DNA of 64,000 bases from Planctomycetota bacterium (GTDB lineage: Bacteria; Planctomycetota; GCA-002687715), in assembly GCA_002683135.1 (NCBI GenBank), contig NYSS01000033.1:19772-83771 (forward strand), in the 5' to 3' direction. Position numbers and translations under genes: made by a program. Positions 1 through 41,264 of this stretch are shown here, in pieces. The notes beneath the pieces were generated by a model. It saw nothing but the letters and a program-made list of their open reading frames with translations, had not been told where the DNA came from and made no database searches. How positions within the stretch are numbered: the stretch's first letter is position 1; each line of letters opens with the position of its first letter.

Positions 1-3000
1 CTCGCTCCACCTTCCAACCGACCATGTGGCAAGACGAATCGCCTGTCGGCCGGACGCGGTCGAAGCACCCGTCCTTCTTGACGAAGGTGTCCCAGCCCTT
101 GAGCCCGGTCGCGTAGACCGCCCCGTCGTGCGGTCCCTGGCGGATCCGCATGACGCCCGACGCGCACTGGAACGGGAATCGGCTGGCCGCGGCCTGGGCG
201 ACGCCGTCCACCTCGTGCTCGCACACCCAGTAGATCCATCCGCGTCCATAGCTGGTGTGGATCATCTTGCCCGCGAGCGGCCCGAACCGCGGGTCCATGG
301 CGAACACCTGGCTGCCGCATGAGTTGTCGAACTCCTGGGGGAACCAGATCATCGGGTGGTCGAAGGTCTTGGGCCGCTTCGGGAGGTGACCGCCGTAGCC
401 GTAGAAGCCCCCCGGACGGATCTTGGAGATCTTCCCCGCGGGCATCCAGTTGCCCTGGTTGTCGGTCACGTAGATGGAATCGTCTGGACCGATGCTCATG
501 CCGTTGGGGACCCGGAAGCCCGTGCAGACGAGCTCGGAGCGTGACCCGTCGGGGGCGACCTTGATCACGGCGCCGCCGAGTCTGTAATCCGTGTACTGGC
601 CAGGCTTGACGTAGTAGAGGTTGCCGGCGGTGTCCGTGTTCAGGTCGAAGTTGAACGCGTGGAACCCGCGCGAGACATCGTCGTCGGCGAGGAAGGTCTC
701 GTACCAGTCCGCTTCGCCGTCGTCGTTGAGGTCATGCAGGCGCACGATGCGGTCCCGCGCCGTCACCAGGACCTTGCCGTCGATGACCTTGACCCCGAGG
801 GGCTCGAACATGCCGGTCGCGAACCGCTGCCACTTCACGTTCTGCAAGCCAGCGTCGAGCCCGGATACGAGCCACAGGTCCCCGCCGTAGGTGGAGACCG
901 CCGCGGTCCCGTCGGGGAAGAAGTCGAGGGCCGACATCTTCATCCAGGCGTTGAACGGGTTGGGCTCCGGCAAACCGATGCGGTCGAGGGCGTAGCCGTT
1001 GGCCGATTCAGAGGCGACCTCACCCTTGGTGACGATGGGATCGCCCCAGCGCTTCGGTCCGCCCTTGGTGTAGGTGTTGGGATCGACGACCTGCTGGCGT
1101 TGGGCGAGGTCGAGGGCCTTCGCGAACGAGGTGAGGTCGGGGGTGCCCTTGCCCGCGCGCCGCAGCACGCGCACCACGCGTGGCTTATCGGACGCAGGCA
1201 GTCGCAGCAGCAGGCGGTCCTCGTCGATCTCCCATTCCAGGTCCGCCACGTCCCCGGCGGCGCCCGCGGCGACGAAGGTGCCGACACCGAGCGAGCCGCC
1301 GGCGCCGGATGCGAGGGCGAGGTGTCCGGCGACAGCGCCGTCCTGTTCCCAGACGCCCTGCTGGTGTTTCAGGTCGAAGGGGAGCACCGCCTGTATGCCC
1401 TGGGCGTCCTTCGCGCGCTCCGCCACGCACAGCAAAAGGTCATTCTTGCCGGGAGCGATGCGCAATGTTTGGGACACGACGACGTGATCGCCTGCGCGAA
1501 CGGACTCCGGCAGCTCGAGCACATTGCGACCGTCGATGTCGTAGCTGATGACGGTCCTACGTCCGTGGTAGTAGTGGCCGCGATGGCGCAGCAGGTCCTG
1601 TGGCAGGGGAGCCCGTGGCGGGTGACCGGCCGGATCGCCGAAGCGATCGTCGGCGCCATGCGCCCACTCCCATGTCTCGAGCCCAGCCAAGGGACGCCCG
1701 GCGGGGGTCGGCTGCCCCTCGCCCCGCAGGCGGTGGTGCTGGGTGTTACTGAGGTCTAAGAACCCGTCGAACCACGCGCCGGAAATAGACATGCGGTGCA
1801 GGTCGTAGGAGAGGCTGACGTGATCGCCGGCGCGTACGGTGAAGGCGCTGGAGACGCCGCTCTGAAGCTGGGACGCAAGGGCCGGGCCGTAGTCGCGCTC
1901 GGGGCCCTTGGCGGCGCCGACGGGATCTGTGGACTCCCTGGGCGGGATACCTACGGGGAGCTGGTCGAGGTAGTCCTGGGTGACCTTGAAGTACTGGCTC
2001 GGGTTCTTTCCCTCGAAGAAGCGCTCGCGGACGTAATGGATGGCGTCGTAGCGTTCCTGTGGTGACAGCAGGGTTTGTGGCGGCATGTTGTCCGACCCGT
2101 ACGTCATGGTTCGCCACATGGAGTGGGGGTCGGAGCCGTACTTCAGGGGGTCCTGCATGAAGTTGCGCGCCGCCGGATTGTCCTTCTTGAACCCCTCCCC
2201 GTGGCACTCGTAGCAGCGGTTCTTGTAGACCACCTCGCCGCGGGAAAAGGCGGCTTCCCCGAAGCCCGCGATCATGGCGCGGTGGTCCACGTCCGCGAGC
2301 GGGCGTACCCAGATGTTGGCGAAGCGAATGGAAGCGGTGTCGGCTTGCAGGCGCAGAGGACCGGGGACGCCGCGGAGCAGCGCGGCGGGACGGGGGAGCG
2401 CGTCGCCTCCGTCGCGATAGATGGCGGCGCCCTTTGGCAGCTCGTCCTTGGCGGCGAGCGCGGCGATGCGGGCGCCGTCGAGGCTCTCGCTGATGTGCGC
2501 CGCGTACGCGATCTCGCCTTCGAACCGGCCGGCGAAGTCTGTCGACGCGGCGCCCGCCTTGAGGACGTGGGATGCCTCGTCAGGGGCGGTGAACTCCTCA
2601 CGCTTGGCCTCGAGCTTGCCGTCCACGTAGAGCAGCGCGGCCCCGTCCCTGTAGGTGAGGGCTGCGTGGTGCCACCCGCCATCCGCCACGTCCGTGCGGG
2701 AGGTGATCGCACCCACCCAGCCGATGTCGTATACGAGCTGGCCGCCGCGGATGAACAAGGCCTTGGCGTTCGGTTTCCACGCACCTCGTGGGGGAGACTT
2801 GGACAGGAGCGTGCCCCCCTCGTGGGTGCGGAACTTGGCGACCCAGGTGAAGTCCCCGCCGCCGACGTCAAGCTGATTGCGGGACTCGGCGAGGCCCCAT
2901 TGGCGGCGGCCGCGTTCCCGTCCGGGGCCCGTGTTGCCCCCGCCGCCGTCGTCGCTGGACCCTTGCACCGTACGTTCGGGCAGTGAGATGTCGTCGTGGA

Positions 3001-36144: not shown

Positions 36145-36437
36145 AGCTCCAGCTGGGGGTAGGGGACGCTCCCCGTGAAGGGCGAACAGCGTCCGGACCT
36201 TGAAGTGTACCCCAGCAACTGAGCGGGGCTCCCACTCGATTCCCTTCGAGTTCTCATACGGGTGAGATCATGGTGGTGATCATCTGGGTTCCCTCTTTTC
36301 GGGCCCCGTGTCGCTCCGGTGTTCCCAAGTCTCGGATGCGTAAGGGCGTCACGATCCTGGCCCGAGGGGGATTGGATGTGGAACTCCGGCAGAATCCCGA
36401 CATGATGAAGAAGCAGGCAGGGTTTTCGGAGCTGATC

Positions 36438-39098
36438 ATGCGACGTGCGATGGCCATTCTCTTGCTTCTGGCCGGGGTGCTGAGTGCCCAGGAGACCCCT
36501 GTCTCCTGGACCGTCAAGTCGCCTGCGCAGGTCACGGCGAACGTGACGTTCACGCTCGATGTGACGGTCGCCATCGATCCGCCGTACCACATCTACGGGC
36601 TCGATCCGCAGGAGACAGGCGAGTCCACGGCCTTCTCGTCGCCGCCGCCGGATGACCGGGTGACCGTGACAGGGGAGCCCTCTCCGTCCCGTCCAGCGAG
36701 CCTCCACGATGACGAGTTCGGCAAGTACACGTACTGGGAGAACGAGGTCACCTTCAAGGTGTCGGTGCGGGTCAACGGGGCGGAGGCATCCGAGAAACTC
36801 ACGTTCGATCTCGTCATGGACTACATGGCGTGCACTGAGGAGGGTTGTCTGCCGCCGATGGCGCTGACGCGGCAGATCACGGTCGCGGTCGCCAAGGGTG
36901 AGGCGGCGTCGGACCCGCCGGCCGTCGATCCGATTGGTGCAGGCGAGTTTGGGGTCATCCCCGCCGATCCGGCCGAGCAGGCGTACCCGGTCACGCTCAA
37001 GGGCGGTTCGGTCGGCGAGGTCAAGGACGGGCGTTTCGACGCGAAGGTCACCGTGTCCATGGCGCCGCCGTATCACATCTACGGGTTCGGGGACTCGGAA
37101 GAATCGACCACGTTGAGCGTCGTCGGGACCGCGGGGGTCGCGCGAGCGGGTGATCCGACCGCGGACCGAACGCCCAAGGACTACGCCGACGAGTACAACA
37201 GCTACACCTACTGGGACGGCGATGTCACGCTGACCCTGCCCTTACGTATTGTCCGCGCGACGGCCGGCGAGGCCATCAAGTTCAAGCTCCGTGTCGCCCA
37301 CCTTGCTTGTGACGCGACAGGGTGTCTGCAGCCCAAGAACCTCGAACTCGATCTCGAGGTGACGTCGCCCGATCAGGTGGACGCGCCTTCGTCCACGTTC
37401 GACGGCGACGCGACGCCCGGTCAGCAGGTCGACCTCCTGATCCCGATAGGCGCCGCAGGGGCGACCGCTGGTGAGACGATCCCGGGGTCGAAGGTGCGGT
37501 TCTCGAAGGACCACCTCGCCGCGGCGGGGGACGGTGTGGTGGAAGCCATGGGCGACGGGCTAGCTCTCCGCGTGCCCGTCCTGGTTCACGAGAACCTGGC
37601 CGATGGGGAGGCCCTCGCGTTGGAGGGCTACGTCGAGCTGGCGTCCGGACGGATTCCGTTCACCGTCGCCGGGGCCGTGTCCCAGCCGATCACGGCCTTC
37701 ATCCTGCTCGCGGCGGTGGCGGCGCTGTTCGCGTTGCTCACGCCGTGCGTCTTCCCGATGATCCCGATCACCATCTCGTTCTTCACCAAGCAGGCCGAGT
37801 CGGCCCCGTACCCGCCGGTCACCATGGGTGCGGTCTACTGCATCGGGATCGTCTTCTCCTTCACGGCGATCGGTGTGCTCTTCACGCTGGCCCTCGGGCC
37901 CGGGGGCGCCATCGCCTTCGCCCAGAGCCGCGTGACGCTGGGTCTGATCGCGCTCTTGTTCATCGTCTTCGCGCTCTCGCTCTTCGGGATGTTCGAGTTG
38001 CAGCTCCCCGCGTCGGTGATGAACCTTGTGGGACGGGCGCAGGGTAAGGGGGGGCTCATCGGTGTCCTGCTCCTGGGGCTGCTGTTCGCGGTCACGAGCT
38101 TCGCTTGCACCGCGCCGTTCGTCGGGACCATCCTCGCCGGTGCGGCGGCTTCGGGCTCATGGACCCGACCGATCCTCGGGATGGTGGTCTTCTCCGGGGT
38201 CCTCGCGGTGCCGTTCTTTTTCTTGTCGATCTTCCCGTCACGGCTGAAGAGCATGCCTCGAGCCGGCAGTTGGCTGAACGAGGTGAAGGTCGTCATGGGC
38301 TTCGTCGAGATCGCGGCCGCGTTCAAGTTTCTGGGTGACATGGAGCCGACGATCTTCACGCGCTTCCTGATCCTCTGTGTCTGGACTGTCACGTTCAGCG
38401 TGTGTGGTTTCTACTTGCTCGGCCTGTTCCGCTTGCCTCACGATGCACCGAAGGAAAAGGTCGGTGTATTGGGAATGGTGTTCTCCTTGTTCTTCCTTGG
38501 CTTCGGGCTCTATTGCACGAAGGGGCTCGACGGCGAAGCGCTGTCCAAGGACATCGACGCCTACCTGCCGGACGAGGTGGTCGCGCGGACGCCCCTTGGA
38601 CGTCGTCAGGCGATCGTCAAGGAGCTCGGTCTCGTGGGGGGCTCGGATCGGGTGGGATACGACCGGGCATTCCATTACTGGGACAAGGACCGGGGACAGG
38701 TAGTCGACGAGGCTCCCTACGAGGACGCGCTGGCGGAGGCCAAGCGGCTCGGCACCGCGTTGTTCATCGATTTCACGGGCTATGCCTGACCCAACTGCCG
38801 TCAGGTGGAGAAGAATGTCTTCACCGACGAGAGGGTCCGGGAGGCCTTCAAGAAGTTCGTCGTCGTCAAGCTCTACTGTGATCAGAAGTACGGCCCTTCG
38901 TCGGGCGAGCGTGCCGCTTTCAACATGGAGTTGGAGAAGACGCTCACCCCCAGCACCCAGCAGCCCCAGTACGTCGTCCTCGACCCAGAGTCCCGGGAAG
39001 CGGTGGCCACCTGGGGATGGGTCCGGGCCCACCTGAGCGACCCGCAGTTGTTCGTGGACAAGATGCTCGCGGGGTTGCAGGCCGTGAAGGACTTCTGA
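36438..39098 (+). CDS. dsbD: Selenocysteine-containing DsbD-type thiol:disulfide interchange protein (UxxC in C-terminal thioredoxin domain; TGA 38787-38789 read as Sec)
   Basis: Signal peptide MRRAMAILLLLAGVLSAQ; two DsbD-alpha-like domains (YMACTEEGCLPP, HLACDATGCLQP); DsbD/CcdA membrane domain (LLTPCVFPMIPITISFF, SFACTAPFVGTILAGAA); C-terminal domain GTALFIDFTGYA-[TGA]-PNCRQVEKNVFTDERVREAFKKFVVVKLYCDQ..., in frame to a TGA stop at 39096-39098. The track splits it into 36270-38789 and 38805-39098. Confidence 0.9.
38787..38789 (+). other. In-frame TGA selenocysteine codon
   Basis: TGA sits exactly at the first Cys of the expected FTGYxCxNC motif; the frame continues for about 100 more conserved codons. 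Confidence 0.88.
38804..38825 (+). promoter_or_regulatory. Candidate bacterial SECIS stem-loop
   Basis: GGUGGAGA-AGAAUG-UCUUCACC: 8-bp stem (one G-U), 6-nt loop with G at loop position 2; loop starts 22 nt after the UGA. Confidence 0.8.
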
Positions 39099-39175: not shown

Positions 39176-39817
39176 ATGACCACATCTGGGGATCACCGCA
39201 CCACCGAGCAGCTCGTCCTGCGCATTCATGGCGGTGATCTGGATGCGTTCAACCAGTTGTTCATGCGGTACTACCCGCGCATGAAGCTCCTGGTGCGGCT
39301 CCACATGCTGGACAAGCTGAAGGCACAGGTGGAGGCGGACGACGTGATCCAGGAGATCTACATGGAGGTCTACAAGAACTTCCACAAGTTCGAGTATCGG
39401 GACCCGGACTCGTTCTACAAGTGGGTGGTCAAGGTCATCGGCTGGAAGATCAAGGACTTCGACAAGTACTTCTTCAAGACGTCGAAACGACAGCCCGGTG
39501 AGACGCTCTCCTTGCAGCAACGGGCACCCGGTGGGACGGAAACCGCCCCGGTCCTGGGTGATGGGATCGCGGGGGAGGACACCACGCCCTCGGCGATCAT
39601 CATGGAGAAGGAGGGCTACAAGATGCTCGCCCAGGCTTTGCAGAAGCTACCCGGGCACTTTCGCAAGGTGATCCAACTCCGGCATCTCGAGCAGCGTTCG
39701 GTGAAGGAGACCGCCGAGATTCTTGATATGAAACCAAACGCAGTGAACGTCCTGTTCCATCGTGCGCAGTCGCGCTTGCACGACGTCTTGAAGGAAATGA
39801 CCTACTTCAAGACCTGA
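39176..39817 (+). CDS. RNA polymerase sigma factor, sigma-70/ECF family
   Basis: ADDVIQEIYMEVYKNFHKFEYRDPDSFYKWVVKVIGWKIKDF (region 2), LPGHFRKVIQLRHLEQRSVKETAEILDMKPNAVNVLFHRAQSRLHDVL (region 4). Confidence 0.93.
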   Translation: MTTSGDHRTTEQLVLRIHGGDLDAFNQLFMRYYPRMKLLVRLHMLDKLKAQVEADDVIQEIYMEVYKNFHKFEYRDPDSFYKWVVKVIGWKIKDFDKYFFKTSKRQPGETLSLQQRAPGGTETAPVLGDGIAGEDTTPSAIIMEKEGYKMLAQALQKLPGHFRKVIQLRHLEQRSVKETAEILDMKPNAVNVLFHRAQSRLHDVLKEMTYFKT

Positions 39818-39845
39818 TCATCGACGCCCTTTCTCCCATCAGACC

Positions 39846-41264
39846 GTGGATTCTCCTGGAGAAGATCGCGAGGCCGTCCTCGCGAAGATCAGAGCCGAGG
39901 TCGACGCGGTCCTCGCCGCCGGTGAGGTCCCGGATCGTGCTCGGTGGGCGGATCTGCTGCCGGAGGGTGACGATGAGCTCGATACGCTCATCGAGCTGCG
40001 GACCTTTCGTCACCAGCAGGCGGTTGGCGAACTCGATGTCGATGACGCGGAGCGGCTCCTCGCCGATATCGAGGCGGAGATTCAGGACGCGCTCAACCAG
40101 GGTAAGACGCCGGACCTGGTTGTTTACGAAGCCCGTTATCCCCATCTCGCCAACCGCATCGAGCGCCTGGGCTCGACACACGAGTTCGTCTACGACGCGT
40201 TGAGCGGTGACCACGTGCCCGCGTCGGTGGCTCACAAGGAGGACGACGCTCAGACGGCGCTCGGTCGCTACCGGGTGCTCGGTCGCATTGCTGACCACCC
40301 GGTGGGGACGGCTTACCTCTCCGTTTCGGACGACCCCCCCGAACGTGTGGAGCTGCTGGTCCTCGATGCGCGCATTCCACGGGGTCTCGGCTGGGAGATC
40401 GTTAGGGAAGCGGACCAGAGTCGCAGTCTGCAGGGTCCCGGGCTGCTCCCGGCCCGTGAAGTAGGCGATGTGCGCGGTGTGCGCTTTGTCGTATCCGAGC
40501 ACAAGGCGGGGGTCAGCCTGTCCCAGGTGCTGATGGATCTGGCGTTTCATGGCGGCGAGCGCACGCTGGAGCACGCCATGCCGCCTTATGGCCGTCCCGT
40601 GGGCGACGAGCATTCGGCTGAGGATCGCGCGGAGGCGAACGCCAACGGCGCCCAGGCCGCGGCCGTGCTCGGTGCCGATTCCGTTCACGTGCGCCGCTCG
40701 ATCGCGTTGGTCCGTGACATCGCCAGGATCGTCGCCGCGGCTCACGTGAAGGGACGTCTTCACCGCAACCTGTCGCCGTCGGCGCTCGTGATCGCTCGGG
40801 ATGGGGCGCCGTGGGTTCGCTGGTTCGGCCTCACCCGTTACCTGCCGCCTCCGCGACCGGTGGCCGTCCGTACCCCGCTATGGCGTGCTCCAGAATTGCT
40901 GGCCGGGGCAGAGGTCACCAAAATCGACTGGCGCGCGGATGTGTGGGGCGTGGGAGCGCTGCTGTTCTCCATGCTGCGGTTCGAACCGCCGTTGCTGCTC
41001 CATCCGGGGGATATGGACCGCTCGCGCGTGTTACGGGAGGGCGCCGACCGGATTGAGCGTCAGCTTGCCGCGGTGCTGCCGGTCCTGCGCCCGACCCTCT
41101 CGCGGGCCCTGTCTTGGGATCCGAGCGCGCGCCATGCAAGCTGCGAAGCCCTCGCCGACGAGCTGGATTCACTCCTCCAACGCCTCGATTCGGGATCACG
41201 CGTGACCCCGCCGCAGCGTGAGCCACCGAAGAAGCGCCGCGGTTGGTTCCGCCGTCGCGGGTAG
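39846..41264 (+). CDS. Protein kinase-fold protein, probable pseudokinase
   Basis: Kinase-like layout with LHRNLSPSALVI (HRD to HRN), VRWFGLTRYL (DFG to WFG), APELLAGAEVTKIDWRADVWGVGALLFSML; directly downstream of a sigma factor. Confidence 0.85.
   Translation: MDSPGEDREAVLAKIRAEVDAVLAAGEVPDRARWADLLPEGDDELDTLIELRTFRHQQAVGELDVDDAERLLADIEAEIQDALNQGKTPDLVVYEARYPHLANRIERLGSTHEFVYDALSGDHVPASVAHKEDDAQTALGRYRVLGRIADHPVGTAYLSVSDDPPERVELLVLDARIPRGLGWEIVREADQSRSLQGPGLLPAREVGDVRGVRFVVSEHKAGVSLSQVLMDLAFHGGERTLEHAMPPYGRPVGDEHSAEDRAEANANGAQAAAVLGADSVHVRRSIALVRDIARIVAAAHVKGRLHRNLSPSALVIARDGAPWVRWFGLTRYLPPPRPVAVRTPLWRAPELLAGAEVTKIDWRADVWGVGALLFSMLRFEPPLLLHPGDMDRSRVLREGADRIERQLAAVLPVLRPTLSRALSWDPSARHASCEALADELDSLLQRLDSGSRVTPPQREPPKKRRGWFRRRG

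Follow-up and report, generated by a model that had tools for sequence, protein, structure and literature searches.

A candidate two-hairpin SECIS element in the coding region of a bacterial DsbD-type selenoprotein gene

The DsbD-type gene in the 64,000-nucleotide stretch of DNA analyzed here (the window) probably carries, within its coding region, a bacterial SECIS element composed of two abutting hairpins, a reading to which we assign a probability of roughly 0.6. The TGA at 38787-38789 would be decoded as selenocysteine (Sec), giving a DsbD protein with a UPNC active site in its C-terminal thioredoxin domain. The near helix (38799-38829) would fold the mRNA back and place the abutting far hairpin at a normal distance from the ribosomal decoding site, where SelB with Sec-tRNA would dock on the far G[G/U] loop (38831-38849, loop CGGGA) and deliver Sec at the UGA. 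We infer that SelB binds the far loop, that the near helix serves as a spacer and that Sec is actually inserted; the computations themselves establish the Sec machinery, the conservation of the TGA, selection on both hairpins, the near/far exclusivity of the loop motif and the recurrence of the layout in selD.

The DsbD gene and its in-frame TGA

The gene, its domains and the recoded codon are as follows.

36438-39098, plus strand: DsbD-type thiol:disulfide interchange gene with one in-frame TGA (predicted Sec)
36537-36869, plus strand: DsbD N-terminal domain, PF11412 (E 2e-12)
37707-38330, plus strand: DsbD transmembrane domain, PF02683 (E 3e-25)
38718-38987, plus strand: C-terminal thioredoxin-like domain, PF13899 (E 4e-9 with the TGA read as Cys), predicted active site U-P-N-C
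38787-38789, plus strand: TGA, predicted Sec codon (residue 784), in place of the first Cys in the CxxC of the C-terminal thioredoxin domain

All three Pfam domains score above their cut-offs and together make up the domain set of the DsbD family; for the C-terminal domain PF13899 is the best match, and PF13098 falls below its cut-off. The mechanical open reading frame opens at 36270, and the start codon is likely the ATG at 36438 (MRRAMAILLLLAGVLSAQ), which was picked by means of the signal peptide. Aligned at the active site, the gene reads FTGYA-U-PNC against FTGYTCTNC of the Cys form. Downstream, at 39176-41264 of the window, the translations show by eye a 213-amino acid sigma factor-like open reading frame and then a 472-amino acid protein kinase-like one.

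Recoding of the TGA at 38787-38789 as Sec is well supported, because the organism's own genome (G000) encodes selA, selB, two selD genes and a tRNA-Sec(UCA), and because dozens of homologues keep the TGA. The tRNA-Sec scores 73.8 bits with anticodon tca, and each of the two selD genes has an in-frame TGA of its own; selA, one selD and the tRNA-Sec are clustered on contig C184 (7833-10199, L329). The second Sec-selD, on contig C12 (5952-7327, L330), adjoins a Sec peroxiredoxin-like gene. At least 10 further genes of this genome have an in-frame TGA at a redox site (L018, L019, L311, L312, L315, L320, L321, L323, L324 and L326), among them the two selD and peroxiredoxin-like, TlpA-like and AhpD/CMD-like genes, which amounts to a rich selenoproteome.

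Among 60 relatives searched, the TGA is retained in members of the same genus (87% identity), of the family and of the order, and Cys forms occur between them; in the phylum, 380 of the 399 genomes searched with a profile gave a match, many of them containing one TGA. The best 80 loci of a protein search of bacterial contigs are all Cys forms at 30-43% identity and served as controls. We aligned 91 Sec and 136 Cys distinct homologues at the codon, of which 90 and 134 were usable, the latter comprising 56 from the same phylum and 78 from other phyla. TGA and Cys exchange at this codon across the homologues, giving the Cys homologues at the UGA that bSECIS takes as a criterion. A tree built without the SECIS columns contains 17 changes between Sec and Cys states and puts the window gene in a clade (support 96) shared by two Sec genomes and a Cys group.

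It is hardly credible that the TGA is an ordinary stop codon, a sequencing error or a pseudogene lesion, or that TGA has been reassigned in this organism. The stand-alone 839-amino acid open reading frame does end at this TGA, and we found no support for such readings; independent genomes across the genus, family and phylum carry this TGA too, with the domain conserved on either side of it, and the organism's own genome holds complete Sec machinery. Reassignment fails because the DsbD gene itself terminates with another TGA (39096-39098).

The near hairpin

The earlier note, made from the sequence alone, had proposed a SECIS-like stem-loop just after the TGA, which here forms the core of a longer helix.

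38804-38825, plus strand: near hairpin, 8 bp, loop AGAAUG, loop start at +22
38799-38829, plus strand: extended near helix, in which CGUC (38799-38802) pairs with GACG (38826-38829) and A38803 is bulged; MFE -16.9

The sequence of 38804-38825 is GGTGGAGA AGAATG TCTTCACC, and the stem is present exactly as described, with eight uninterrupted pairs (seven Watson-Crick and the wobble G38808-U38821); the 6-nt loop with G in second place and the 22 nt from the TGA to the loop were likewise found in the sequence. The 22-mer folds at -9.8 kcal/mol. Published bacterial SECIS geometry requires a loop of 3-9, a stem of 4-16, a spacing of 16-37 nt, a G in the first two loop positions and an MFE of at most -7.5 (PMC13188914), and the near hairpin fits it with a loop of 6 nt, a stem of 8 bp, -9.8, a spacing of +22 and G at loop position 2. 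Folding stability above shuffled controls, on which the earlier note had staked its proposal, is also found: the 47-mer from the TGA folds at -17.7 kcal/mol, with z -3.4 against dinucleotide shuffles.

The caution that the pairing could be due to chance was warranted too. The exact 8-bp stem arises in 8% of synonymous variants that preserve both the protein and the codon usage of the gene, and the hairpin energy has p=0.06; the MFE of the near domain has p=0.0095 against synonymous recodings. There are 51 such hairpins of 8 bp and 6 nt on the plus strand of the 64 kb, and the codons for VEKNVF provide much of the near-stem pairing. By itself the near hairpin is only marginally beyond chance, and it becomes convincing because of the comparative data. 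The suggestion that it is a functionless by-product of the VEKNVF codons, with some other signal driving Sec insertion, draws on the 8% of variants that share the stem; we regard it as very improbable in view of the contrast between Sec and Cys homologues, the stability excess of the near domain in far-motif homologues and the synonymous sites frozen between two species, all described below.

In the near loop AGAAUG the G at position 2 is followed by A, and the loop thus lacks the G[G/U] that occurs in the motif hairpin of 10 of 10 other Sec genes examined in the genome.

The far hairpin

38831-38849, plus strand: far hairpin GAGGGUC-CGGGA-GGCCUUC, 7 bp, loop start at +48; candidate SelB-binding loop

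The far hairpin has a 5-nt loop and folds at -7.7 kcal/mol, within the bSECIS limits for loop, stem and MFE, and in its loop CGGGA the G at position 2 is followed by another G. A far hairpin with a G[G/U] loop and the observed stability has p=0.0038 among synonymous variants, and the near and far hairpins jointly have p=0.0005. The linear spacing of the far loop, +48, is outside 16-37 nt, but falls to about 17 nt with the near helix folded (9+1+7), a path close to the linear spacing of single-hairpin genes. Once UGA has entered the A site, roughly 11 nt of the mRNA are occluded, and a SECIS has its lower part unwound (PMC4513850). Effective spacing was discarded as a discriminating statistic, since codon-shuffled sequences fold back nearly as far (17.5 vs 18.5). 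The evidence for the two-hairpin model is stability, loop motif, exclusivity and conservation, and fold-back alone is not diagnostic. Weighing against the model are this lack of any advantage in effective spacing over codon-shuffled sequences, the agreement of the near hairpin, taken by itself, with the published model, the position of the far loop at +48, beyond that model's range, and Rfam, which returned nothing relevant in the whole window at the gathering threshold or around the site at E<=10.

G000 was also compared with its congener G001. Degenerate codons for the same residue are identical at 65.6% gene-wide (n=491), whereas synonymous codons are unchanged at 18 of 19 positions within codons 1-20 after the TGA (binomial about 0.004, calculated by hand). 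The frozen block stops where the far hairpin stops, and its single changed codon allows one extra pair in the near helix. The relatives L102, L103 and L111 share with the window far loops CGGGA/CGUGA at +48, and in the closest Cys relatives, the sisters L106-L108 (genomes G008, G012 and G010), the far hairpin is absent altogether; the far element is therefore missing where Sec is missing.

Near and far motifs across the homologues

Homologues were compared with codon shuffles that keep the amino acids and third-base composition, with independent seeds. Sec homologues have an excess of hairpins whose loop begins at +17..28 (mean z about -1.3, compared with about -0.3 or weaker in Cys homologues) and a smaller one at +41..46 that is hardly seen in Cys homologues. 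The best bSECIS-like hairpin differs between Sec and Cys homologues of the same phylum at p about 6e-8. Where the near loop lacks G[G/U], many Sec homologues bear a second hairpin further on, for example with loop GGUC at +44.

We then applied fixed criteria: a contiguous stem, E<=-4.5, a near position of +15..30 or a far position of +38..52, and a loop of an optional base followed by G[G/U]. The motif and distance windows were chosen after inspection of the first data set and applied unchanged to the second. A G[G/U] hairpin in the near or far position was found in 84 of 90 Sec homologues, against 22.9+-3.7 expected from codon shuffles (maximum 32); the corresponding counts were 9 of 56 for Cys homologues of the phylum (6.4 expected) and 6 of 78 for other Cys homologues (3.5 expected). 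Near and far motifs are largely mutually exclusive: among 61 representatives at 75% identity, 25 have the near motif only, 24 the far motif only, six both and six neither (OR 0.06, p 2e-6). Sequences with the near motif have no far excess (z 0.05), and in those with the far motif, the type to which the window gene belongs, the near domain is more stable than in synonymous variants (z -1.42, p 1e-9).

A replication set drawn from a single class of the phylum (49 Sec and 28 Cys sequences, all new) gave the same picture. The G[G/U] hairpin is present in 45 of the 49 Sec sequences (19.0+-3.3 expected) and in five of the 28 Cys sequences (2.1 expected), exclusivity holds with OR 0.11 (p 0.004; p 0.03 on 34 representatives), and the near-domain excess in far-motif sequences has z -0.88 (p 2e-5). 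Covariation in the far helix, scored in 24 far-motif rows from one clade picked regardless of the far helix, includes double changes at four of six pairs, with a score of 0.274 compared with 0.106 when shuffled and at most 0.12 in slid controls; near-stem covariation could not be counted in one alignment owing to register shifts between homologues. Phylogenetically independent pairs agree in direction, with too few supported pairs for significance. Codons 13-17 after the TGA encode PAVAG in far-motif Sec homologues (e.g., L113, L172 and L176) and PEVxx in Cys homologues. In the former, the stretch GCG GUC GCC GG makes the GGUC hairpin, so that the protein sequence itself seems to be shaped by the RNA signal.

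These patterns bear on which loop SelB would read. If the near hairpin were the whole SECIS, SelB would read G38813 in AGAAUG at the normal +22, and the far hairpin would be coding-driven or accidental. The fit to published geometry (PMC13188914), the near-hairpin signal of Sec homologues, which is highest at +17..28, and the near-loop G retained in L102 all speak for this, and it remains the strongest competitor; we nonetheless consider it rather unlikely. Its loop is without G[G/U], unlike the motif hairpins of the 10 other Sec genes, a far hairpin of this form is rare in synonymous variants (p=0.0038), the far hairpin is retained in L102, L103 and L111 and missing in the Cys sister group, and homologues with the motif in the near loop show no far-hairpin excess. 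It is less probable still that both loops contribute, with SelB docking on either, or with one hairpin stalling or pacing the ribosome while the other binds SelB. Both hairpins do lie within one block of frozen synonymous sites, and the motif occurs in both of them in 12 of 90 Sec homologues, but the strong exclusivity suggests that one docking loop is enough.

We therefore return to the two-hairpin model, in which the near hairpin is likelier to be a structural spacer than the loop that SelB binds. Of the earlier proposal of a SECIS at 38804-38825, the Sec codon and selection on RNA structure after the TGA hold up, whereas the element probably extends past 38825. The near loop loses ground as the recognition loop: G[G/U] is borne by the far hairpin at 38831-38849, and among homologues of this type it is the far loop that is conserved, while the near one varies.

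Recurrence of the layout in other Sec genes

A hairpin with a G[G/U] loop was found in all 11 Sec genes examined in G000, and in DsbD it is the far one. In six genes this loop lies directly at +18..25; an intervening stem precedes it in DsbD (+48), the two selD (+33) and two TlpA-like genes (+31 and +60). One of the latter, the WUGPC gene L315 on contig C45, has its sole G[G/U] hairpin at about +60, behind a stem of -13.6 kcal/mol, and may represent the two-part layout at its most extreme. The Sec-selD genes of this genome and of relatives have a motif-less near stem abutting a far hairpin with loop AGGU(C/U/G)CU at about +33. The near stem has z -1.68, the far stem z -2.3 and the next segment +0.1, and far-stem covariation is 0.454 vs 0.150.

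Comparison with known systems

The Sec-selD genes of the same genome and phylum resemble DsbD in having a motif-less near stem directly before a motif-bearing far hairpin; they differ in that the far loop of selD, an unrelated gene, at +33 is inside the classical spacing range. TsoB (NF045694), a rhodanese/DsbD fusion-like selenoprotein, shares the DsbD membrane domain with the window gene but has another domain layout and another Sec motif (UxxxxU), and the window gene was rejected as TsoB with a score of 139 against a cut-off of 805 bits. The "Thiol:disulfide interchange protein" selenoprotein family (PF13098, UxxC; "Trx-like 2", cd02953, of the GOS survey) likewise has a thioredoxin-fold UxxC with Sec at the first Cys; cd02953 is, we presume, the DsbD gamma domain. 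In the window gene, by contrast, this domain forms the C-terminal end of a full-length DsbD that also has the N-terminal and membrane domains. Thiol:disulfide interchange proteins with Sec already constitute a known predicted family (PMC13188914, PMC1794560, PMC2398784). The Sec form of DsbD, a membrane electron carrier to the periplasm, occurs widely within one bacterial phylum.

Published methods for detecting bacterial selenoprotein genes look for one hairpin, 16-37 nt from the UGA (PMC13188914), and in one test about 13% of known selenoprotein genes were missed (PMC12013277). Our literature searches, of partial coverage and thus no proof of absence, found no description of a two-hairpin or distal bacterial SECIS. 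The odds seem to us evenly balanced that there is a recurrent class of bacterial SECIS with the SelB loop 30-60 nt downstream of the UGA and a stem in between that restores the usual distance, represented in G000 by DsbD, two selD and probably two TlpA-like genes, beside single-hairpin elements served by the same SelB. If such a class with a distal loop is real, it would account for part of the missed genes, and a simple rule would follow, namely that distance is counted around the folded stem, making the spacing requirement of SelB directly testable.

Compared with bacterial SECIS elements of the bSECISearch consensus and the E. coli fdhF type, the window has in common a coding stem-loop after the UGA, a small apical loop with G[G/U], here that of the far hairpin, and the SelB/tRNA-Sec machinery. 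It differs in having two abutting hairpins, with an intervening stem that lacks the motif, and in its motif loop, which lies at +48 (44-52 in similar homologues) where the model allows 16-37 nt (PMC13188914). Sec in this family had already been predicted; the proposed SECIS layout departs from the published single-hairpin model in where its motif loop lies.
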